Of a stretch of 64,000 nucleotides of DNA, positions 20,930-30,587 are shown in pieces (position 1 is the first letter of the stretch; the number at the start of each line of letters is the position of its first letter). The DNA is from Oceaniferula flava. GTDB taxonomy: Bacteria > Verrucomicrobiota > Verrucomicrobiia > Verrucomicrobiales > Akkermansiaceae. Location: contig NZ_JAFBGL010000005.1 in the NCBI RefSeq assembly GCF_016811075.1, positions 124,001-188,000 on the forward strand, given 5' to 3'. The notes below the pieces were generated by a model. That model had not been told where the DNA came from, did not search any database, and was given only the letters and a program-made list of their open reading frames with translations. The translations under genes were made by a program, and so were the position numbers.

Positions 20930-21128
20930 GCCCCCTTTTAAGCACTGAATCCTGAATACTTCCAACTGAATACGCCCGACAGGGCCAAAAAAAATACTGC
21001 CAGGAACTGCGGCAATGACGGACAAACTGTGGCTGCTACCTTTCGGTCCTGACCAAATTCATCTGCCGGCACTCCACAGCCCTGACAGCGAGGGGTTCTT
21101 AATCTCTCTGCGCAGGATTGCAAGAGGT

Positions 21129-21449
21129 TTATGCAGGATCTGGCGTCTTACCGTTGCGCGAAATGGCCTCACCGGTGCGTGTCAGCTGGCCGAGGAATAG
21201 CACGGAAGCCGAGGCGAGAAAAATGCCGCCGGTGAGCAGGCCGATACCGCAGAACCAGTCGGCTCCCGAAAATAGCCAAGTGATGGCAGAAACGGCCATC
21301 ACGCCGAGACCCGTCAGGGCTAGGCCAATGATCAGGCCGTAGCTGAAAACGGTGACGGCCGGTCCGGCGAGACGCTGAGACCAGAGGGTGGCAAATTCGG
21401 CTGCGGTCGGTTTGAGATCGGCGGAAGTGGTTGTGCTTGGTTCATTCAT
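21129..21449 (-). CDS. Small two-span membrane protein, last gene of the polyamine/DUF350 operon
   Basis: I do not recognise this 106-residue protein. It has a polar N-terminus of about 28 residues and then two hydrophobic segments (about 31-57 and 63-86), so it is probably an inner-membrane protein with both ends in the cytoplasm. The C-terminal tail is short and basic. It lies 65 bases downstream of the AdoMet decarboxylase gene on the same strand and is the presumed end of the operon starting at queA. Confidence 0.65.
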   Translation of the reverse strand: MNEPSTTTSADLKPTAAEFATLWSQRLAGPAVTVFSYGLIIGLALTGLGVMAVSAITWLFSGADWFCGIGLLTGGIFLASASVLFLGQLTRTGEAISRNGKTPDPA

Positions 21450-21514
21450 AACGAGGCGGAGAATGGCTCCACTGCGTGAAAAGATGATGAACCGAGGGTG
21501 AAAAGACGGTGAAA

Positions 21515-21913
21515 TCAGTGTGGCACTGAAGCCGTCTCAAGTGCCGGTGGTCGGCGCTCCAGCCGTGTGAGGGTGTGTTTCCCCGGCTTGAAGGCGTCGA
21601 GCAGCTGAGTGGTGATGTTTTCCGCAATCTCCGGCAGACCACAGGTGAAGACATCGAGTGCCGCGTAGCCGTGTTCCGGCCAAGTGTGGATGGCGATGTG
21701 GCTTTCCGCGATGACCACCACGCCGCTCAGTCCGTGCGGGTTGAACTGGTGCAGCACAGTCTCCACCACGGTAGCTCCCGCCTGCCGCGCCGCTTGTTCG
21801 AGAGTCTGCTTGAGCAGGGGAAGTTCGGTGAGCAGCGCCGGTGCACAGTCGGCACACTCCAGAAGGTAATGGACTCCGGGGGCTGGATGCGAGGACGCTG
21901 CGGTGGGGGACAT
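21515..21913 (-). CDS. speH: S-adenosylmethionine decarboxylase proenzyme (SpeH type)
   Basis: This enzyme makes decarboxylated AdoMet, the aminopropyl donor for spermidine. The 132-residue proenzyme belongs to the short class used by many bacteria and archaea. It self-cleaves between Glu70 and Ser71 in [15 protein letters not shown], and the serine becomes the pyruvoyl cofactor. The downstream LDVFTCG cysteine (Cys91) is also conserved. An extra C-terminal tail of about 20 residues follows the core. It lies nine bases after the K+ channel gene and in the same operon as an aminopropyltransferase, so both steps of spermidine synthesis from putrescine are present. Confidence 0.95.
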
Positions 21914-21922
21914 GGGGGGAGT

Positions 21923-23011
21923 TTAAGCGATCAGAGAATTTTCGAAAGCGACAAAATGCTGCCGTTTTTCCGTGAGGACAAAAAGTTGGTCGTCCGGTTC
22001 GATGACCACCGATTTGGCCGGGTTCAGCATGCTTTCGTCGCCACGTTTGATACCGATGATTTGCAGCTCCTCGGGGCTGTCCAAGGCGGCTTTTTGCAGC
22101 TCGAAGATTGGTTTGCCCTTGAGTTTGGTATCGAAGATATAGAGCTGGCTGCCGACTTTGTTCGACAGCAGTTGGGAAAAGACACCGTGCAACCCGGGGT
22201 GGAGAAATTCCTGCACCAGGATGCGATCGCAGATGCCCTCGGTGGCCACCGCGCTATCGATGCTGGAGTGGCTGACCATGCGCAGGCTTCGCTCATTAAC
22301 CAGCTCTGCCACCGTGTTGATGCTGCTGCCGGTTTCTTCTTCGATGTGTTCGATGATGGAACCGATGGCGTAGGTGCAGGCATCGCTGGCTGCGCTGTGG
22401 GCGTCTTTGGCGAGGATGAATGCGCCGGATGCCAGCCGAATGTTCGCCCGCTCGAGAGCCAGGTCATCGGTGGGGTCTCCCTTGACGAACTCGATCCCTT
22501 CCTTGCGCATGGTGTGCGAGATTTCCTCGATGCTATTGCAGAGTAACACGATGGGGGTGTCACGGTGTTTCGGCGTCGCGCGGATCTCCTGCACGATCTG
22601 CAGGACTTTGGTCTCTGAGGGGCAGTGGCAGATGATGATGTGGTTTTTCATTTTACAAGGGGCTAGTCCTTTACGTTTACGGGCGGTGAAATCAATGAGG
22701 GCCTCGGCAAGGCTTCCTAACAGGTAACCGATCAGGCCAATGCCGAGGATGAAGCAGGGGTAAGCGATGAAGAAGCGACCGATGAACGACTGCGGGTAAT
22801 AATCGCCATAGCCGACCGTGGTCATGGTGACCATCGCCCACCAGATAGAGTCGGTGAGAGTGAGCTCGGTCTGGATATCGCGCTCGGCGTAATAAAAGCC
22901 GATACCGAAGATGAGGTTGAGTAAAAACGCGCCCGAAAGAGCGATGCAGATACGCCCTAACAGAGATATTTTCCCCAGTTGGAGCAAGCGGCGCAGAATA
23001 ATGAAGAGCAT
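21923..23011 (-). CDS. Potassium channel with RCK/TrkA domains
   Basis: This 362-residue inner-membrane protein has two spans around a pore helix and the K+ selectivity filter TVGYGD (residues 65-70). A cytoplasmic RCK part follows that starts KNHIIICHCPSETKVLQIV and ends in a TrkA-C-like segment (IGIKRGDESMLNPAKSVVIEPDDQLFVL). This is the MthK/Kch type of ligand-gated channel. The Rossmann glycine motif is degenerate (CHCPSE in place of GxGxxG), so nucleotide binding is unsure. It sits inside the polyamine operon, whose products are known blockers of K+ channels in other systems; that functional link is my inference. Confidence 0.92.
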   Translation of the reverse strand: MLFIILRRLLQLGKISLLGRICIALSGAFLLNLIFGIGFYYAERDIQTELTLTDSIWWAMVTMTTVGYGDYYPQSFIGRFFIAYPCFILGIGLIGYLLGSLAEALIDFTARKRKGLAPCKMKNHIIICHCPSETKVLQIVQEIRATPKHRDTPIVLLCNSIEEISHTMRKEGIEFVKGDPTDDLALERANIRLASGAFILAKDAHSAASDACTYAIGSIIEHIEEETGSSINTVAELVNERSLRMVSHSSIDSAVATEGICDRILVQEFLHPGLHGVFSQLLSNKVGSQLYIFDTKLKGKPIFELQKAALDSPEELQIIGIKRGDESMLNPAKSVVIEPDDQLFVLTEKRQHFVAFENSLIA

Positions 23012-23036
23012 GGCATCGGTCGCGGTTAGAGATCGC

Positions 23037-23828
23037 TTAGTCCAAGTTCCACGGCTGTTGCCAGATCGGCTTGTCCCAGCCGGGCAGGGGCACGGGGATG
23101 TCGTAATTGTGTCGGTCTTTCAGCGGATACCACGCTTGCAGGTTGCTGTGGATCTCGACATCGGACGGATGGAGCTCGCGCAGCAGCATGAATCCTTGCT
23201 CGGCGATGTCGTCTAACACCTCTTCTCCGGAGATCGTGCCGCCTTCGTGATGATCATCTGGATACGCCAAGTCGATGGGTTTGATCGCACTGTTGCAGAT
23301 TTCTAAAATCTCATCCCAGAGGTTGCCGGAGTTCATTTCCAGCGGCCAGTAGGTATTGCCTCCGGCCAAGCGATCTTCCTGGACGAACTGGCAGTAAACC
23401 ATCTCCACGGCACTGCCGCCGAGGTGTTCGATGATGGGGATGCGGAGATCCTCCCAGCGCTCGTCGTCGAGGAAGCGCTCCCAGGCCGCGGTGGAATTGA
23501 AATTTCCAAACTCGGCAAAGGCGAACTCACCCTCGGCCAGATCGACGGCGGAGAAAAGATCGAAGTAGGTAAGCAGGGTGCGGTAGCGCGCGGCGAAAGC
23601 GGTGGCCTTGGCCTTGCCTTTCTCGGTGAGCACGTAGTGATGCTTGTCGTTGATCTCGACCAGCTCCTTCACCTGCAGCCAGGTGAGGCTCGACTGCAGA
23701 TACGCCTCATCGTTGGGCAGCAGCACATCGTAGCTGCGGTTCTCCTTCTGCATCAAGGTGAGCAGAAAGGTGCCTGCGAAGGTTTTGATTTCCTCCGGTG
23801 AGATGGAAAAGTGAATGACGGAATACAT
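23037..23828 (-). CDS. Uncharacterised protein with N-terminal winged-helix-like region
   Basis: I do not recognise this 263-residue soluble protein. The first roughly 85 residues look like a helix-turn-helix or winged helix (LTWLQVKELVEINDKHHYVL, then TEKGKAKATAFAARYRTLL). The rest is acidic and aromatic (FAEFGNFNSTAAWERF, then YCQFVQEDRLAGGNTYWPLE). It ends in a Trp/Pro-rich tail (PLPGWDKPIWQQPWNLD). There is no signal peptide or membrane segment. It lies between the DUF350 protein (9 bases upstream) and the K+ channel (25 bases downstream), so it is probably a cytoplasmic partner of the membrane proteins around it rather than a free DNA-binding regulator. Confidence 0.72.
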   Translation of the reverse strand: MYSVIHFSISPEEIKTFAGTFLLTLMQKENRSYDVLLPNDEAYLQSSLTWLQVKELVEINDKHHYVLTEKGKAKATAFAARYRTLLTYFDLFSAVDLAEGEFAFAEFGNFNSTAAWERFLDDERWEDLRIPIIEHLGGSAVEMVYCQFVQEDRLAGGNTYWPLEMNSGNLWDEILEICNSAIKPIDLAYPDDHHEGGTISGEEVLDDIAEQGFMLLRELHPSDVEIHSNLQAWYPLKDRHNYDIPVPLPGWDKPIWQQPWNLD

Positions 23829-23837
23829 GGGGGATGC

Positions 23838-24734
23838 TTAGAAAAAGGCGCCTTGAATGAGGAGGGAGACACCCACGGCGGTGGAGACCTCGATCAGTGC
23901 GGCGCCCCAGTTTTGGTCCTGGTGGATCTCATCATCAAGATGGGCGCCGGAGAGCAGCAACTTGTCCATAACCACCCGCGTGATGATCAGCAGGAAGGCG
24001 GAGACGACTCCCCAGATGGCGAGTGCGATCAGGCTGTCGTAGCTTTTGACAAAGAAACCAAGCAGCAGACCGAATGCCACCAAGCTGCCACCCAGAGCCA
24101 CGCCCGCAGCGGCATTGTCGCGCTCGATCTCTGCGTGGAGATCGAAGCGGGTGCATTTCTGATAGATGAAGCAGAAGACAAATAACAAGGCCTGGGTGAT
24201 GGCAAACCAGACAAGGGCGGCGCCCAGCTCGGCCACGAAGGTGCCGGACTCTTCATCGCCTAACACCGCGCGGATTACCAGGGCGGTGGCGATGTAGGAA
24301 CCGGCCTGAGCCGCTCCCATGCCGATGTTGCGATCGGTGACGAGTTCCTTTTTGTTGGAAAACTTGGGAAAGAGCACCTTGTCGTTAAAGACGCGGGAAA
24401 CCAGCAGAAGGATGCAGGCGATGCCGGACCAGACGGCGGTGCTTCCGAGGTCGAGCAGCCATGCATTTTCATCCGCCTCCAGCACCTTGAGGCTGGCAGG
24501 TGCGGTGAGGATGCCGTGGATGACGAGGCAGAGGGAGAGCAGGAATCCGGCGAAGGAAACGGCGACCGCTTTGTTGTCCTCTTTGGTGAGCTGATCGTTC
24601 AGCGAGTAGCCGGCGCAGGCTTGGTTCACCAGCTTGGCCAGCCAGAGGATGACGGCGGCGACGATGAGGTAAACGGCCACCCGCCAGTCGGCGAGGTCAC
24701 TGAGCGGGGAGAAATCGAATGCGTTATCGAACAT
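23838..24734 (-). CDS. DUF350 multi-span membrane protein (YjfL-like)
   Basis: This 298-residue integral membrane protein has about eight hydrophobic segments arranged as a tandem DUF350 unit. Each half has a VAAGVALGGSLVAFGLLLGF-type glycine-rich span. Shorter relatives such as E. coli YjfL carry one unit. The function of the family is not established. It often occurs with polyamine-modifying enzymes, PspA-like proteins and ion channels. Here the neighbours are a lipoprotein gene, an unknown soluble protein, a K+ channel and both spermidine-synthesis enzymes. Confidence 0.85.
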   Translation of the reverse strand: MFDNAFDFSPLSDLADWRVAVYLIVAAVILWLAKLVNQACAGYSLNDQLTKEDNKAVAVSFAGFLLSLCLVIHGILTAPASLKVLEADENAWLLDLGSTAVWSGIACILLLVSRVFNDKVLFPKFSNKKELVTDRNIGMGAAQAGSYIATALVIRAVLGDEESGTFVAELGAALVWFAITQALLFVFCFIYQKCTRFDLHAEIERDNAAAGVALGGSLVAFGLLLGFFVKSYDSLIALAIWGVVSAFLLIITRVVMDKLLLSGAHLDDEIHQDQNWGAALIEVSTAVGVSLLIQGAFF

Positions 24735-24757
24735 GGGATGTGAATGTTAGGGGGAGA

Positions 24758-25600
24758 TTATTTTCCGCCGCCGAAGGAGCTGCGTGAGCGGGATGAGGAG
24801 GAACTGCCGAAGCGTGAGGATGAGCTCGAGGATCGTGAGCCGAAGCCTTTGCGGCTGGTCAGAGTCTTGGACGGGTTGCGTTTTTGAAAACTCTTCTGGC
24901 TACTGGTCGGGTTCTTCAGTGGCGCCTTGATTTTGGTGGCGGTTTTGTTGAAGTTGGGCGACTTGATAGGCTTCGCCACGGCCGGCTTGCTGCTGGCGGT
25001 AACATTTTTGCTGTAGGGCTGGGCCTTGTGGTGATTGGCGTATGCCGCCTGCGATCTGGGCGCGTAGTTGGAGTAGCCGCCGGGGTAGTTATTGTATCCC
25101 CAGGAGGAGTAATAGGGGCGGTGCGAGCTGATCAGGTAGCTCCACAGCAGCACATCAGTCATCGAAGTGCGGTGATGGTAGTAGTGATTGTTGCCGTAAA
25201 TGTGCTCATTGCCGTGGGTTTGCACGGTGACTTGTTTCTCGCCCTCTTGCTCGAACTGGATCACGCAGAGCTCCTGTTCCTCGCCTGCCTCCGCACTTAA
25301 TTCGGTGGTCAGCGAGAAGCCGTGCTGGCCGCCGTCATTGATCTCGGTGACCTTGATGTAGTCCACCTTGTTGTCCTCATTGAGGTCGAGATTGTTGACC
25401 GTGTTACCTTTTTCGTTGAGCTTCTCTTCGAACTCCTTGGCTGTTTTTACCTTGGTCGCGAGATCGGTGACCGCTTGCAGGTTCAGTCCATCCGCTGCGG
25501 TGTGCACGATGGTGGTGACGTATTCGGTGTTGTTCCTGCCGCAACCGGTGAGAAGGAGGGCGGCGGCAGCCAGGGGGAGAATGAGGAGTCGGTGAAGCAT
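24758..25600 (-). CDS. Lipoprotein with Ser/Arg/Gly-rich tail
   Basis: This 280-residue protein has a lipoprotein signal peptide (MLHRLLILPLAAAALLLTGC, Cys20). A folded region follows (about 25-150) with an EF-hand-like acidic stretch LDLNEDNKVDYIKV. A Tyr/His/Asn-rich middle is next, and a basic low-complexity C-terminus ends in repeated SSSSRFGSSS-like and SRSRSSFGGG segments. I do not know its function. The Ser/Gly/Arg tail recalls DUF1190 lipoproteins (YgiB/YjfM), whose genes also sit near DUF350 and polyamine-ligase genes in enterobacteria; whether they are related cannot be settled here. It lies 17 bases after the aminopropyltransferase gene. Confidence 0.75.
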   Translation of the reverse strand: MLHRLLILPLAAAALLLTGCGRNNTEYVTTIVHTAADGLNLQAVTDLATKVKTAKEFEEKLNEKGNTVNNLDLNEDNKVDYIKVTEINDGGQHGFSLTTELSAEAGEEQELCVIQFEQEGEKQVTVQTHGNEHIYGNNHYYHHRTSMTDVLLWSYLISSHRPYYSSWGYNNYPGGYSNYAPRSQAAYANHHKAQPYSKNVTASSKPAVAKPIKSPNFNKTATKIKAPLKNPTSSQKSFQKRNPSKTLTSRKGFGSRSSSSSSRFGSSSSSRSRSSFGGGK

Positions 25601-25617
25601 CGTGGGAGTAGCGGTTG

Positions 25618-27279
25618 TTAGTAGTTCCAGCCTTGTAGGTAATACTCTAAGACTGAGGGTCGGGTCAATGTTGAGATGGTTTCGTGAGCTGTGTCGAGCG
25701 ATCCTTTGCCAAAATAGAGACTTGCGCGGATGAGGTCGGGTGTGAGGTAGCGGAGATCTTGGGGGAGTTCATCGACTTTGGAAAGCCTCTGACGGAGTTC
25801 AGGCTCGGATTGTGTGCCTTGATGCGCGGCGATCCACCACCCCCACTCACCGAAGGACGGCACGTGGTCGTGATAGGGGATGGCGCTGTATCCGGCGGCT
25901 CTGAGTGTGCGGCCGATGCATAAAAATGCCTCCTTAGCCCGATACGGTGAGGTGGACTGCTGGACGATCACGCCGTCGGCATTGAGTTTGCTTTTGAGCG
26001 CTTGGTAGAATGGCAGGCTGTAGAGCTTGGCCAGATCTGGGCTGGAGGGGTCGGGGAAATCGAGGATGATGCAATCGAAGCTTCCCGTCGCCTGCTGCAC
26101 GTAGGCGATGGCGTCCAGATTGATCACTTGCAGTTCTGGCGAGTGAGGATTTCCCGGTTGAATGGTGCGGCGTTGGTGGGGGAGTTCCAGTTGGTATGGG
26201 CCGTCTGAAGTGATCGCCTGGTTGGAAATCGTCTGCACGCGCGCGTCGGTCAGGCTGCCTTCGTTGATGCCGACGAGATCCGCTTGCTCGGCCGCGAGCC
26301 GAGTCATTTCCGGGTCGAGATCCACTAAGACAATCTCTTCGACGTCTGGATACTTGAGGAGCTCGCGCACCGCCAAACCGTCGCCACCACCGAGCACGAG
26401 GATGCGCTTTCGGTGGGTCAGCAGCTGCATCGGCGGGTGCACTAACATTTCGTGGTAGATAAACTCATCGGTGGACGAGAATTGAATGTGGCCGTTGATG
26501 TAGCAGCGCAGGTTGGAGTTCTTGTCTTTGGTGAGAACAATGTGCTGATACTGGGTGCTCTCGGAGAAGATGACGCGATCGAGATAGAGCTGCTGCTCGG
26601 CGTGCAGCGACCAGCGGTGCGACTTCGCCACACCCACTCCAAGCGCACCAGTCGTCACCACAATCCCCGCCAAGATGAGTGCCGGGTGTCGAGTTTGTTT
26701 GCGAAAGAAAAACCAGCAGAGCAAAGTCGCGGCCACGGTGAGAAATGCCAGAATGTATGCCGTCTGGTGCAGGGAGAAAAATTTCGGCAATACAAAGATC
26801 CATAGCAAGCCGCCCGCCAGTGCGCCGATGTAGTCCATTTTCAACACCCGTGCGAGGTTGTTCCGGATGTCCTCCGAATAACCCTCATTGATCCGAGTGA
26901 TCAGGGGGATTTCAAAGCCGATGAGTAGCCCAATCACACTGATCAGCGAGTAGTGCACCAGTCCGAACTGATAGGGAGCGTAGGAAAAGGCCAGCAGCAT
27001 CAGCAGCGGACCAAAGCCGCCCAACAAGGCTAACAACAACTGCGACCCCAACATCGCCGAAACCACCCGCCGCGCCGGAATAAAGCGCTGCACCTCCGCG
27101 CCCATGCCCATGCAGAACAGCATGATGGCAATCACCACAGCCCACTGCTGCACGCTGTTGCCGAGCAAGTCGGAGGCAATCCTTGAAAAAGTGTATTCGT
27201 AAGCCAGGCCGCAGCCGCCCATGACGAAGATCACCGCGCCGAGAATCCAGCCTTGGGTTTTGTTAGGGGTGGGGGTCAT
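25618..27279 (-). CDS. speE: Membrane-anchored polyamine aminopropyltransferase (spermidine synthase)
   Basis: This 553-residue protein has an N-terminal membrane domain of about seven spans (residues 12-215) fused to a spermidine synthase domain. The synthase part shows DEFIYHEMLVHPPM (271-284), the dcAdoMet-binding VLGGGDGLAVREL (GGGDG 297-301), VLVDLDPEMTRLA and DCIILDFPDPSSPDLAKLYS. It transfers an aminopropyl group from decarboxylated AdoMet to a polyamine, probably putrescine. The membrane half sets it apart from the roughly 280-residue cytosolic form and fits the membrane theme of its operon. The matching decarboxylase gene lies five genes downstream. It begins six bases after queA. 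Confidence 0.93.
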   Translation of the reverse strand: MTPTPNKTQGWILGAVIFVMGGCGLAYEYTFSRIASDLLGNSVQQWAVVIAIMLFCMGMGAEVQRFIPARRVVSAMLGSQLLLALLGGFGPLLMLLAFSYAPYQFGLVHYSLISVIGLLIGFEIPLITRINEGYSEDIRNNLARVLKMDYIGALAGGLLWIFVLPKFFSLHQTAYILAFLTVAATLLCWFFFRKQTRHPALILAGIVVTTGALGVGVAKSHRWSLHAEQQLYLDRVIFSESTQYQHIVLTKDKNSNLRCYINGHIQFSSTDEFIYHEMLVHPPMQLLTHRKRILVLGGGDGLAVRELLKYPDVEEIVLVDLDPEMTRLAAEQADLVGINEGSLTDARVQTISNQAITSDGPYQLELPHQRRTIQPGNPHSPELQVINLDAIAYVQQATGSFDCIILDFPDPSSPDLAKLYSLPFYQALKSKLNADGVIVQQSTSPYRAKEAFLCIGRTLRAAGYSAIPYHDHVPSFGEWGWWIAAHQGTQSEPELRQRLSKVDELPQDLRYLTPDLIRASLYFGKGSLDTAHETISTLTRPSVLEYYLQGWNY

Positions 27280-27285
27280 GGGGCG

Positions 27286-28278
27286 TTAAAGGATGAGCAT
27301 GCAGTCGCCGTAGGAAAAGAAGCGGTATTTTTCACGCACTGCTTCCTCGTAGGCAGAAAGAATGAGGTCTCGGTTGGCAAAGGCGGAGACCAGCATGATG
27401 AGGGTGCTCTGGGGGAGGTGGAAGTTGGTGAGCAGCACATCGACCACTTTGAAATTGTAGGGCGGGTTGATGAAGATGTCTGTTTCGCCGCTGGTTGCTG
27501 TTAGTTCGATTGGATGCAAATCCTTTGCCAGGGATTCGAGCACGCGGGTGCAGGTGGTGCCGGTGGAGACGACTCGACCCGTCTGCTTCGCAGCGTTGAT
27601 GCGGTCGGCGCTTTCCTGGCTGAGATGGAATCGTTCCGAGTGCATTTCGTGGTCCTTGACGAACTCCGCTTTCACCGGGCGGAAGGTGCCAACACCGACG
27701 TGGAGTGTTAGGAATGTGTGGTTGAGCTTGGCGAGGATCTCTGGAGTGAAGTGCAGGCCGGCGGTGGGAGCGGCGATGGCGCCTTCTTCGCGGGCGAAGG
27801 TGGTCTGGTAGCGATCGCGGTCTTCCACGTCGCTCTCGCGGTTCATGTAGTGGGGCAGGGCGAGGCGGCCGTGGGTTTCTTCGTCGACCGCTTGGTTCCA
27901 GCGGATGATACGGTTGCCACTTTCCAAGATGCTCTCGACAGTGCCGGTGGCGTCGCCAATTTCCACCGTGCGTCCCGGCTTCATCTTTTTCCCGGGGCGC
28001 ACCAGGCATTCCCAGACGAGTTCGGAAATCTTGTGGGTGCAGACGAGTTCGATCTTCCCATCGTTGGAAAAAAAGCGGGCGGGGGTGACTTTGGTATCGT
28101 TGAGCACCAGCAAGTCATTGGGCTGAAGATACTCCGTGATGTCGGTGAACATGCGGTGTTCGATTTTTCCAGAGTCGCGGTGGATGACCATCATGCGCGA
28201 GGCTGCGCGATCGTCGAGCGGTCGGTCGGCGATGAGTTCATCGGGCAGGTGGTAGTCGAAGTCGGTGGTTCGGAGCAC
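27286..28278 (-). CDS. queA: tRNA preQ1(34) S-adenosylmethionine ribosyltransferase-isomerase
   Basis: QueA transfers and isomerises the ribose of AdoMet onto preQ1 in the wobble position of tRNAs, a step in queuosine synthesis. The 330-residue product begins TTDFDYHLPDELIADRPLDDR. It contains LVLNDTKVTPARFF, a PTAGLHFTPEIL motif, and TSGETDIFINPPYNFKVVD. It is the first gene of the minus-strand operon that continues into the aminopropyltransferase. Both this enzyme and the AdoMet decarboxylase use AdoMet for something other than methylation. Confidence 0.96.
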   Translation of the reverse strand: MLRTTDFDYHLPDELIADRPLDDRAASRMMVIHRDSGKIEHRMFTDITEYLQPNDLLVLNDTKVTPARFFSNDGKIELVCTHKISELVWECLVRPGKKMKPGRTVEIGDATGTVESILESGNRIIRWNQAVDEETHGRLALPHYMNRESDVEDRDRYQTTFAREEGAIAAPTAGLHFTPEILAKLNHTFLTLHVGVGTFRPVKAEFVKDHEMHSERFHLSQESADRINAAKQTGRVVSTGTTCTRVLESLAKDLHPIELTATSGETDIFINPPYNFKVVDVLLTNFHLPQSTLIMLVSAFANRDLILSAYEEAVREKYRFFSYGDCMLIL

Positions 28279-28386: not shown

Positions 28387-28409
28387 AATACCTCGTGCCT
28401 CGAGAGAAC

Positions 28410-30587
28410 ATGCAGCGCTTGCAAGTGGACGGGAAATTTTTCCGTGCAGGAGGTCGGCGAGTGTTCTTGAAGATGGTGACCTACGGGCCTTTTCCGGAGC
28501 CGCTGCCCGAGCATCTGGCACAGCCACTTCCTGAGCTGCAGAGGATTCGGCAGGCGGGATTTAATGCGATTCGACTCTACCACGAACCGGATCTGGCGCT
28601 GTTGGGCGCCGCGGCCGAGGCGGGGCTCTGGGTCTTTGCCGGTTTGTCCTGGGACCAGGGGCGGGATTTTATTTCGCAGCCGTCGCTGCTGGCGGAGGCC
28701 CGACTGAAACTCGATCATGGTTTGAAAAGTTGGGGGCAACACCCGGCGCTGGCCGGTCTCCTGGTGGGCAACGAGATCCCTGCCGACATGGTCCGCTGGA
28801 TGGGGGTGAACAAGGTCCGCCGAGTGATTGAGCAGCTCATTGAGCAGGCTAGGGCGGTGCAGCCGGACCGGCTCTACGGCTATGCCAGTTTCCCGACCAC
28901 GGAATTCCTCGAACCTTCGAATGCGGACTTCACCGCGATGAATGTCTATCTGGAGCAGCGCGAGCAGTTCGCCGCCTACTTGCCGCGCCTGCACAATGTC
29001 GCAGGAGATCGTCCGGTGCTGCTCAGTGAGTTCGGCTTGGACACACGCCGCGGCGGTGAAGACCGGCAGAGTGAGGTTCTGCAGTGGGCATTCGATGAAT
29101 CGCTCAGTGCGGGCATGGCGGGACTGACGATTTATTCTTGGAGCGATTGCTGGCTGAATGGTCAGCGAGTGATGACCGATTGGGACTTCGGCTTGACCGA
29201 TCGACAAGGGCGCGAGAAGCCAGCCTTCCATGCCCTGGCAGCCAAGTTGCCATCAATCCAACAACCGGAAGACGGATTGAATGTGGCCGACGGGCCGATG
29301 TTTTCCGTGGTGGTCTGCACTTACAATGGTGCGCACCGTATGCACCGCTGCCTCGCGGCTCTAACGGCAATGACCTACCCTCATTATGAAATCATCGTGG
29401 TCGACGACGGTTCAGACGATGATCTCGAACAGGTGGTCGCTGAGTATGATCAGGTCCGTTTAATTTCCATCGAACACGGAGGTTTGAGTGTGGCTCGTAA
29501 CGTGGGGGCGAAAGCAGCCCGGGGAGAGATTATTGCTTACACCGATGACGATTGTGAACCGGACGCCGCCTGGCTGACGTGGTTGGCCCATGCCTTTGGT
29601 AAACATGGTTGGGACGCCTGTGGGGGACCGAATTTACCTCCGGAGCCAGCGGCTGAGGGGCATGGTGAGGAACGTTTGGATGAAGCGGTGGTGGCCTCGG
29701 CGCCTGGAGCGCCATCGCATGTTTTATTAGGCGATCAACAGGCCGAGCATTTACCGGGGTGTAATTTGGTGGTGAAAAAAGACGCCTTTGTCACGATCGG
29801 TGGATTTGACGGCAATTACCGGGTGGCTGGCGATGATGTCGACTTCTGCTGGCGACTAAGTAAAGCAGGCTTTCGCATGGGGTTTCACGGTGCTGCCTTT
29901 GTCTGGCACCGACGGCGAACCTCGCTGTGGCGGTATTTCAAGCAGCAGTATGGCTACGGTAAGGCGGAGGCTTTGCTGATGCGCGATCATCCGGAGCGAT
30001 TTCGTAGAGCTGGTGGCGCACGCTGGCAGGGGCATGTCTATGCCGGAGGTGCAATGTGTGCCGACCAAGGGAGTGTGATCTATCACGGCCCGATGGGCAC
30101 CGCTGGCTACCAGCAGCTGGTCCTGACGATGCAGCCGCAACGCCCCTTGCGCGATGGCTACTGCTCTCGGAAAGCTCGACGTCGGCTGGCTCTCGCCGAG
30201 AATATTCAACCTTGGATTCGAAGTTTCTCGCGCTGGTGGTTCAGTTTGGGCTGGCGGTCGAGTTTGGAAAAGGTGCCGAAGCGCAAGTCATTCATTCTGG
30301 TCGATAGCATGGAGACCTTCAATGAGTATGAATCGAAATGGTGGAGTGCGTCCAGCGTGTCGCGCATAGAGGTGCTGGAAGAGTTGACTCATGACGGCTG
30401 GTGCACGCTGGAAAATGATAGCGACTGGGATCTGGAGCGTAACGGACTGCGACTTCTGCTCGCTGAGGAGGTGCTGGATGATGGTCGGATCTTCCTGGCG
30501 CGCATGGAGTGCAGCGCGAGTAGTCGGGGTCGACTGCCTGCTGACTTTACGGGGCGATTGGAGTCGCTGGGACTGACTCGTATTTAA
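28410..30587 (+). CDS. Glycosidase-like / family 2 glycosyltransferase fusion
   Basis: This 725-residue protein combines two carbohydrate domains. The first roughly 285 residues look like a GH2/GH5-type TIM barrel. They include GNE at 120-122 (acid/base) and LLSEFG with Glu207 (nucleophile), then IYSWSDCWLNGQ. From about residue 297 a GT2 domain starts SVVVCTYNGAHRMHRCL. It has DDGS (332-335), a TDDDCEPD metal motif (379-381), CNLVVKKDAFVTIGGFD and a GDDVDFCWRLSKAG acceptor region. A C-terminal part of about 150 residues is not recognised. No signal peptide or clear membrane span is present. I chose the ATG at 28410, where GAGAG lies just upstream; a GTG at 28395 is possible. It probably builds or trims an exopolysaccharide. 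Confidence 0.85.
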   Translation: MQRLQVDGKFFRAGGRRVFLKMVTYGPFPEPLPEHLAQPLPELQRIRQAGFNAIRLYHEPDLALLGAAAEAGLWVFAGLSWDQGRDFISQPSLLAEARLKLDHGLKSWGQHPALAGLLVGNEIPADMVRWMGVNKVRRVIEQLIEQARAVQPDRLYGYASFPTTEFLEPSNADFTAMNVYLEQREQFAAYLPRLHNVAGDRPVLLSEFGLDTRRGGEDRQSEVLQWAFDESLSAGMAGLTIYSWSDCWLNGQRVMTDWDFGLTDRQGREKPAFHALAAKLPSIQQPEDGLNVADGPMFSVVVCTYNGAHRMHRCLAALTAMTYPHYEIIVVDDGSDDDLEQVVAEYDQVRLISIEHGGLSVARNVGAKAARGEIIAYTDDDCEPDAAWLTWLAHAFGKHGWDACGGPNLPPEPAAEGHGEERLDEAVVASAPGAPSHVLLGDQQAEHLPGCNLVVKKDAFVTIGGFDGNYRVAGDDVDFCWRLSKAGFRMGFHGAAFVWHRRRTSLWRYFKQQYGYGKAEALLMRDHPERFRRAGGARWQGHVYAGGAMCADQGSVIYHGPMGTAGYQQLVLTMQPQRPLRDGYCSRKARRRLALAENIQPWIRSFSRWWFSLGWRSSLEKVPKRKSFILVDSMETFNEYESKWWSASSVSRIEVLEELTHDGWCTLENDSDWDLERNGLRLLLAEEVLDDGRIFLARMECSASSRGRLPADFTGRLESLGLTRI

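Follow-up and report, generated by a model that had tools for sequence, protein, structure and literature searches.

A compact cassette of six genes, running from a membrane-fused aminopropyltransferase (speE) to an S-adenosylmethionine (AdoMet) decarboxylase (speD), was delineated in a stretch of 64,000 nucleotides from the bacterium Oceaniferula flava (contig NZ_JAFBGL010000005.1, positions 124,001 to 188,000; this whole stretch is termed the window). Between these two genes lie those for a lipoprotein with a Ser/Arg/Gly tail, a tandem DUF350 membrane protein, an acidic soluble protein of 263 residues (p263) and a K+ channel with an RCK domain. The six genes constitute a widespread bacterial envelope system that spans many phyla, and the cassette of the window is its compact form without PspA. 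It is tentatively proposed that the membrane transferase aminopropylates an acceptor in the envelope, most likely the C-terminal lysine of the lipoprotein.

Distribution and gene content of the system

A profile scan of named genomes for p263 recovered 45 loci; a single-sequence scan beforehand had matched none. The rows of the resulting p263 tree carry 15 phylum labels, and five rows are without a label. A first-pass annotation of the window had proposed a single envelope system and named the neighbourhoods of p263 and of a 106-residue protein (p106) as its test. DUF350 was found at 35 of the 45 loci and the transferase fusion at 30, so this company is indeed kept, while speD was detected at 20 loci only, several contigs being short. 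The lipoprotein is encoded at 40 loci, the channel at 24, CesT and PspA at 20 each and an AAA+ protein at 13. All of these counts were obtained with profiles built here and are lower bounds, several contigs ending early; among the 30 fusions, one match is weak (L090, 5e-4) and two are in pieces (L075 and L093). The fullest gene order is speE - lipoprotein - DUF350 - p263 - channel - CesT - PspA - speD - AAA+, and in same-order relatives Pfam names CesT/CesT_Tir_1, PspA_IM30 and an ATPase with AAA and AAA_lid_6. Because the same gene order recurs across phyla, the cassette is more than a chance run of genes.

The p263 family is patchy, since its profile gave only 3 matches over 387 genomes of the phylum. 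A weak match in one further genome (G151; E 2e-4, one internal stop, no partner genes) was left out of the counts, and no match to p263 was obtained on plasmids. In the p263 tree, the window lies inside an eight-row clade (support 100/99), of which six rows are labelled Verrucomicrobiota and two, the window and G022, are unlabelled. Ten stretches of this clade, representing seven distinct places besides the window, gave no match to CesT, PspA or the AAA+ protein even at E<=1, and Pfam found none of the three among the seven proteins encoded behind queA in the window. The core of the system can therefore do without the PspA of the operon. Of 12 genomes of the order tested, 10 encode a divergent PspA-like protein away from the operon and distinct from operon PspA; that of the window's genome scores below the family cut-off, and nine of the other 11 genomes have one, the sole match in G040 and G181 being the operon's own PspA. 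A PspA that acts in trans on the compact cassette is therefore conceivable. These PspA-like frames are approximately 250-285 residues long, for example in L053 (G000:C6:2398-3042).

The lipoprotein carries a conserved Gly-Lys end

The lipoprotein was surveyed in 42 rows, comprising the window, L038 and 40 loci. Neither Pfam nor NCBIfam yielded a family above cut-off for the protein of the window. A cysteine follows the hydrophobic stretch in 34 of the 42 rows, so that the term lipoprotein is supported for the window and for most, not all, relatives. The other eight (L059, L071, L075, L079, L085, L086, L089 and L090) begin with a hydrophobic segment but lack a lipobox-like cysteine, and look, from their sequences, like an N-terminally membrane-anchored form of the tail protein. 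The protein contains a D-x-N-x-D-x-x-x-D stretch with highly conserved aspartates (D72 in 42/42, D76 in 39/42 and D80 in 42/42), which by eye only resembles an EF-hand loop.

Behind the variable Ser/Arg/Gly tail, 35 of the 42 proteins end in Gly-Lys (GK). This end is present in 35 of 35 proteins with DUF350 in the locus and in 31 of 31 with speE, and in none of the seven without DUF350; after removal of near-copies the figures are 33 of 33 and 0 of 7. The seven proteins without GK end in Arg, Asn or His, and both DUF350 and speE are absent from the stretch examined around them. Among cultured carriers, the lipoprotein of Pelagicoccus sp. (L062) has the GK end, and the contig of Roseibacillus ishigakijimensis (L058) begins only at DUF350. 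A C-terminal lysine is uncommon in the other protein families of the operon (speD 3/21, CesT 4/20, PspA 2/20, AAA+ 3/12, the rest lower).

Two subtypes of the membrane aminopropyltransferase

The transferase matches NF002956 (polyamine aminopropyltransferase; 574.8 bits, cut-off 472). It has seven hydrophobic segments, and its AlphaFold2 model consists of seven long helices and a transferase domain (mean predicted local distance difference test, pLDDT, of 84) with a Foldseek match to the spermidine-synthase-type domain of 3anx (E 8.4e-17). A PADLOC match of the transferase domain to mad2 of the MADS defence system (1.7e-12), together with two weak matches, was not accepted as a sign of defence and probably reflects only a shared methyltransferase-type fold.

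Among the 288 genomes of the order, 34 encode an above-cut-off fusion, of which 20 score at least 657 bits and 14 have a best score of at most 585. The p263 gene is found in 13 of the 14 genomes with lower-scoring fusions, G034 being the exception, and none of the 20 genomes with higher-scoring fusions has it (Fisher p 1.5e-8, kinship ignored). Seven further fusion loci were read, and six of them (L166-L170 and L172) share a form designated class A, with a protein of approximately 635 residues, the fusion and a protein of approximately 520 residues, accompanied by half a DUF350 in five loci and by speD in three. In two of these loci, Pfam identified the longer protein as DUF4178 and the shorter one as amine oxidase; in the remaining four, both were assigned from their position and size. 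The seventh locus, L171, holds the second fusion of G131. These seven fusions and 28 fusions of the window's type (class B) fall into separate clades (SH-aLRT 99). In 59 stretches that surround class B operons, a DUF4178-type profile matched none of the open reading frames (ORFs) and an amine-oxidase profile gave one match, in L078; the 59 stretches are the 45 p263 loci and 14 from further genomes, several representing the same place and one, L051, having DUF350 only.

The residues Y275, H276, G297-D300, D320, D322, D389, D407 and D410, which include the site for decarboxylated AdoMet and the catalytic Asp, are invariant in 28 of 28 fusions. Equally invariant in class B is a D-F-P-D-P motif, which is shared by all class A rows but one (six of seven; D-L-P-D-P in L171) and is replaced by D-L-T-D-P (two), D-G-S-D-P and D-L-A-D-P in four solved relatives. 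A second stretch on the acceptor side, V-P-S-F-G-E-W-G, shows almost no variation among the 28 class B fusions and is present in the same six class A rows.

SpeD, the channel, DUF350 and the question of spermidine

The partner proteins likewise retain their characteristic residues. In SpeD, the Ser, His and Cys that correspond to S63/H68/C83, as named for the Thermotoga maritima enzyme in a passage of PMC10407285, are kept in 21 of 21 proteins and the Glu in 19 of 21. The filter sequence TVGYGD is unchanged in all 25 channels compared, and DUF350 matches PF03994 in two stretches (E 1.4e-58), a hydropathy scan giving seven of the eight expected segments. SpeD and the fusion are the sole above-cut-off copies in the window's genome.

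These genes had at first been read as enzymes that make spermidine. According to the relevant passage of PMC12803844, which cites Li et al. 2019 (Biochem J 476:2579), a fungal fusion of membrane protein and transferase has bacterial homologues that experiments showed to play no part in spermidine or spermine synthesis; the clusters of AdoMet decarboxylase and spermidine-synthase-like membrane fusion concerned contain the same kind of enzyme, and the architecture of the window's transferase suggests that it belongs to this set. The genome itself was searched for a decarboxylase that forms putrescine. The ornithine/arginine decarboxylase fold gave one match, which by sequence reads as diaminopimelate decarboxylase, OKR_DC_1 gave one match below cut-off (23 of 27 bits) and PvlArgDC gave none. 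Thus, no putrescine-forming decarboxylase was found above cut-off by these three families, other routes and putrescine uptake lying outside the search. The spermidine claim is contradicted at the level of the family, and spermidine was not retained as the most likely product. Rather than producing free spermidine, the membrane transferase probably attaches a spermidine-like group to a target in the envelope.

A parallel tail in DUF1190 lipoproteins

A tail of similar kind is also found in DUF1190 lipoproteins. In Escherichia coli, YjfM (encoded beside the DUF350 protein YjfL and YjfC) and YgiB (beside YgiC) both end in Gly-Gly. Fourteen DUF1190 ends were compared, from these two proteins and from 12 plasmid places chosen for spread (107 records match YgiB and 10 match YjfM); 11 end in GG, three in GS and none in Lys. 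The sample includes near relatives, the YjfM proteins of Salmonella and E. coli sharing the same end, and the proteins of L181 and L185 were taken from unannotated ORFs. A gene of the ligase family stands beside 13 of the 14 (two in E. coli, eight at annotated plasmid loci, and those of L176, L181 and L185, the last in pieces). Both lipoprotein families share a tail motif, GFG being present in 41 of the 42 lipoproteins of the present system and GFG or GYG in 13 of the 14 DUF1190 proteins, while the cores of the two families did not align (hhalign probability 0.9%).

YjfC and YgiC are annotated as peptide--spermidine ligases, an activity reportedly described for YgiC/YjfC by Pederick in 2023. 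In the established reaction of glutathionylspermidine synthetase, spermidine becomes linked to glutathione at its C-terminal Gly. If YgiC and YjfC are peptide-spermidine ligases, the neighbouring Gly-Gly ends would be their natural targets. The link to the enterobacterial yjf operon drawn by the first-pass annotation is right at the level of the system, as the tail grammar is shared and the passages of PMC11237479 on these operons treat them together.

p263, an acidic protein with a winged-helix-like start

The predicted structure of p263 is confident (pLDDT 90, predicted template modelling score 0.86) and fits the winged-helix-like start noted in the first inspection of its sequence, as do weak HTH_45 matches in 7 of 43 homologues (E<=0.01). 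The best structural match of the N-terminus is a PadR-like protein (Z 6.9, root-mean-square deviation 3.1, 85 aligned), a Z within the range of common arrangements. Foldseek gave no match at E<=0.001, nor did a comparison with viral predicted structures at the same threshold, and no solved structure was matched by sequence at E<=1. The net charge is negative in 43 of 43 members (mean -28.6), and helix 39-53, which takes the place of a recognition helix in our reading of the model, has a positive net charge in 0 of 43. Such strong acidity argues against DNA binding. Proposals that p263 is the counterpart of YjfK (profile against YjfK, probability 1%) or of DUF4178 found no support by sequence.

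Several p263 loci depart from the common arrangement. In a deltaproteobacterial metagenome-assembled genome (MAG), p263 is split into two ORFs (L071:8986-9801) by a frameshift, an assembly error or decay of the gene. Three loci from Chloracidobacterium/Blastocatellia (L084, L087 and L088) contain only the lipoprotein-p263 pair, with lipoproteins that end in RRN, not GK, and in L084 and L088 the pair is followed by a radical SAM/BATS gene. The Mucilaginibacter locus L095:7277-9741 encodes the lipoprotein, PspA and p263, whereas DUF350, the transferase and speD are missing from the stretch examined. An MliC-like gene lies 3' of p263 in Haliotispira (L092:9768-10214), and a response regulator is encoded between PspA and speD in a Nitrospinia MAG (L059:11045-11446).

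Proposed mechanism and alternative explanations

In the tentative model favoured here, SpeD would supply decarboxylated AdoMet, as its family and catalytic residues suggest, and the membrane transferase would move the aminopropyl group to an envelope acceptor, a role to which the reported non-involvement of its family in spermidine synthesis and the acceptor-side signature both point. Comparison of the protein ends marks the invariant lysine that closes the lipoprotein tail as the most likely acceptor. Since the aminobutyl side chain of lysine and an aminopropyl group together form the spermidine skeleton, aminopropyl-Lys would mimic the peptide-spermidine tip that ligases of the YjfC/YgiC type could attach to DUF1190 proteins at their Gly-Gly end. 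DUF350 would then handle or sense the tagged tail within the membrane, p263 may serve as an acidic adaptor in the cytosol and the K+ channel may be the effector. A wider version of this idea is more doubtful, namely that two unrelated lipoproteins arrive by separate chemical routes at one and the same kind of tail with a polyamine tip, with ligase-joined spermidine on Gly-Gly in one and an aminopropylated encoded Lys in the other.

A number of observations weigh against the lysine as the acceptor. The lipoprotein is exported, yet the domain that uses decarboxylated AdoMet is expected in the cytosol. The charges of the transferase loops (mean K+R of 1.3, 2.4, 1.9 and 3.0 in even loops, 1.0, 0.2 and 0.9 in odd loops and 2.5 in the linker that connects to the transferase) lean weakly towards a transferase domain on the outside. 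For four GK rows (L059, L060, L090 and L092), no fusion was matched at E<1e-6 within the stretch examined, so that GK tracks DUF350 more closely than it does the transferase. On the tree, a small phylogenetic sample, each trait changes four times, and only two of the independent pairs have support (sign test p 0.5); the match between GK and DUF350 is therefore not independent of phylogeny and not significant alone. One of the seven non-GK rows, L089, covers just 752 bases upstream of the lipoprotein. Class A loci gave no match to this lipoprotein family (seven loci) and no conserved C-terminal Lys (four proteins checked), so this Lys cannot be a universal acceptor. V-P-S-F-G-E-W-G-W resembles the H-I-P-S-Y-A-D-I-W-G-W of plant thermospermine synthase, and the second acceptor-side stretch alone is thus no argument against a polyamine acceptor. 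In the DUF1190 comparison, L177 (Photobacterium, ending in GG) has no ligase in the 5.6 kb examined. GK could also be a recognition or sorting signal.

Such a signal is part of an alternative that we consider rather unlikely, in which the envelope system is the same, its transferase aminopropylates a membrane lipid or other small acceptor and GK serves for docking to DUF350 or for sorting. The fusion of the enzyme to seven transmembrane helices fits this idea, as do the closer association of GK with DUF350 and the class A operons, in which the fusion occurs with no match to this lipoprotein and with half a DUF350, DUF4178 and amine oxidase (speD being present in three of the seven loci). However, it offers no account of a Lys end here and Gly-Gly/Ser ends in DUF1190 proteins, nearly all of which (13 of 14) are encoded beside a ligase gene. 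A genuine operon for local spermidine synthesis, with a product that acts on the channel or membrane, would agree with the intact catalytic positions of both enzymes, with their being the only above-cut-off copies in the genome and with the partial likeness to thermospermine synthase. Nevertheless, it is improbable because bacterial fusions of this kind were reported in PMC12803844 as uninvolved in spermidine or spermine synthesis, the membership of the window's enzyme in that set being inferred, and the only above-cut-off match to an ornithine or arginine decarboxylase family reads as diaminopimelate decarboxylase, with uptake outside the search.

For p263, a role as a PadR/MarR/DtxR-like transcription regulator of the operon draws on the winged-helix-like fold, the similarity to a PadR-like protein and the HTH_45 matches; against it stand the ordinary Z, the acidity of every member with a helix 39-53 that is never positive, and the position of the gene in the middle of the operon, which make such a function quite unlikely. 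That the seven genes behind queA form a chance run of short-gap genes without common function is scarcely credible as a whole. It is true of the seventh gene, p106, treated below, and is refuted for the other six by their neighbourhood counts and by a gene order conserved at loci with 15 phylum labels, to which the association of p263 with one fusion subtype (Fisher test, uncorrected for kinship) can be added.

Borders of the cassette

Directly after queA, seven ORFs follow on the minus strand at 21129-27279 of the window (Table 1) with gaps of 6-65 bases, all of them found as first annotated. The gaps measure 6 bases (queA-speE), 17 (speE-lipoprotein), 23 (lipoprotein-DUF350), 9 (DUF350-p263), 25 (p263-channel), 9 (channel-speD) and 65 (speD-p106), and 199 bases separate p106 from pyrE. 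The first annotation had left two of the proteins without a family, and p263 and p106 indeed match nothing above cut-off in Pfam or NCBIfam.

The inclusion of p106 in the system did not withstand the neighbourhood comparison. Homologues of p106 occur in 9 of 13 genomes of the same genus (11 of 58 relatives overall, the window's genome counted), and DUF350 was found in none of the same 13 genomes. The gene lies near queA in L115, L116, L119, L121 and L123, mostly with one or two genes intervening, and adjoins pyrE-cinA in L119, L120 and L121. As it keeps these neighbours in congeners without DUF350, p106 is a backbone neighbour and not a member of the unit. A seven-gene unit was therefore rejected, and the proposal of one envelope system stands for the six genes and falls for p106. 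Thus, the six genes from speE to speD are a cassette that was either gained between queA and p106 here or lost from the congeners. A terminator-like site follows p106, which may accordingly still be co-transcribed with the cassette. On the other side, an ORF of 730 residues (28395-30587, plus strand) diverges from queA; its homologues adjoin queA in five loci of the same genus, and its sequence reads as a glycoside-hydrolase-like plus glycosyltransferase protein.

Table 1. Features of the cassette and its borders (positions within the window)
Feature	Position	Strand	Remarks
Membrane-fused aminopropyltransferase ('SpeE' fusion), 553 aa	25618..27279	-	NF002956, 7 transmembrane helices + aminopropyltransferase domain
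Lipoprotein, 280 aa	24758..25600	-	Lipobox LTGC, D-x-N-x-D-x-x-x-D stretch, Ser/Arg/Gly tail
Codons for the lipoprotein C-terminal Gly-Lys (proposed acceptor site)	24761..24766	-	GK in 35/35 with DUF350
Tandem DUF350 (YjfL-like) membrane protein, 298 aa	23838..24734	-	PF03994 in two stretches
p263, acidic soluble protein, 263 aa, winged-helix-like N-terminus	23037..23828	-	No Pfam model of its own
K+ channel with two transmembrane segments and RCK domain, filter TVGYGD	21923..23011	-	Ion_trans_2 + Slo-like RCK
AdoMet decarboxylase class 1b (speD)	21515..21913	-	AdoMet_dc / TIGR03330; E70-S71 processing site, H76, C91
p106, two-span protein, 106 aa	21129..21449	-	Backbone neighbour, outside the system
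queA	27286..28278	-	Cassette border, not a member; family match and gene order of relatives
Terminator-like stem with T-run, 3' of p106	20996..21016	-	Consensus match only

Relation to known systems and implications

The passages of PMC11237479 (Ravi et al. 2024) on this subject describe, as a second group, operons with the fusion of seven transmembrane helices, an eight-helix DUF350 protein, the lipoprotein Ctha_1186 and CesT/Tir with PspA, and further operons, related to the yjf type, that combine a K+ channel with a ligase or an AdoMet decarboxylase; these operons are suggested to monitor polyamines or the aminopropylation of other substrates. Like the second group, the window has the transferase fusion, the eight-helix DUF350 and a conserved lipoprotein. 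Unlike that group, it has no Pfam match to CesT, PspA, AAA+ or DUF4178 in the operon, although CesT and PspA each occur at 20 of the 45 loci of its relatives, and it adds p263, the K+ channel and the AdoMet decarboxylase. The cassette is hence a variant of the published PspA/polyamine operons that joins features of two groups, lacks the PspA arm and gains p263. No p263-like protein is described in those passages, and the string 'Verrucomicrob' is absent from the main text, to which this check was limited, the supplements lying outside it.

The yjf-type operon (E. coli yjfIJKLMC) and ygiBC share with the window DUF350 (yjf) and a tail-rich lipoprotein with GGFG...GG grammar, and the K+ channel and AdoMet decarboxylase of the window recur in the operons related to yjf. 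The yjf type differs in having a ligase in place of transferase and AdoMet decarboxylase, a single instead of a tandem DUF350 and a tail that ends in GG/GS rather than GK. Among the proteins of the cassette, to which this search was limited, no ATP-grasp ligase resembling glutathionylspermidine synthase was found, and DUF1190 and YjfK/DUF2491 had no Pfam match among the window proteins. The class A operons (DUF4178 - half DUF350 - fusion - amine oxidase - speD) share the GGGDGLA, DFPDP and VPSFGEWG motifs of the enzyme with the window, but form a separate clade, have p263 in 0 of 20 genomes and gave no lipoprotein match in the loci read.

Aminopropyl units on lysines are known from the silaffins of diatoms, as described in a passage of PMC3820600. 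Silaffins are eukaryotic, carry the modification on internal lysines and function in silica deposition, so that the known likeness is chemical, with no homology shown. In the literature searched, the wordings tried for lysine aminopropylation gave no match, the proposed modification of the lipoprotein end did not turn up, and the passages retrieved on DUF350, YjfL, YjfC and YgiB/YgiC make no mention of the tail ends.

The question addressed here is the acceptor of membrane aminopropyltransferases linked to AdoMet decarboxylase. The 2019 work of Li reportedly left the acceptor of the membrane fusion open; the lipoprotein end is proposed here. The analysis singles out one candidate that lends itself to testing, namely the final residue of a lipoprotein encoded in the same operon, and adds p263 as a new conserved partner. 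If the proposal is true, it would name the substrate of this subtype of AdoMet decarboxylase-linked membrane fusions and would amount to bacterial lysine aminopropylation, and two branches of the PspA/DUF350 envelope systems would be tied through one tail chemistry.

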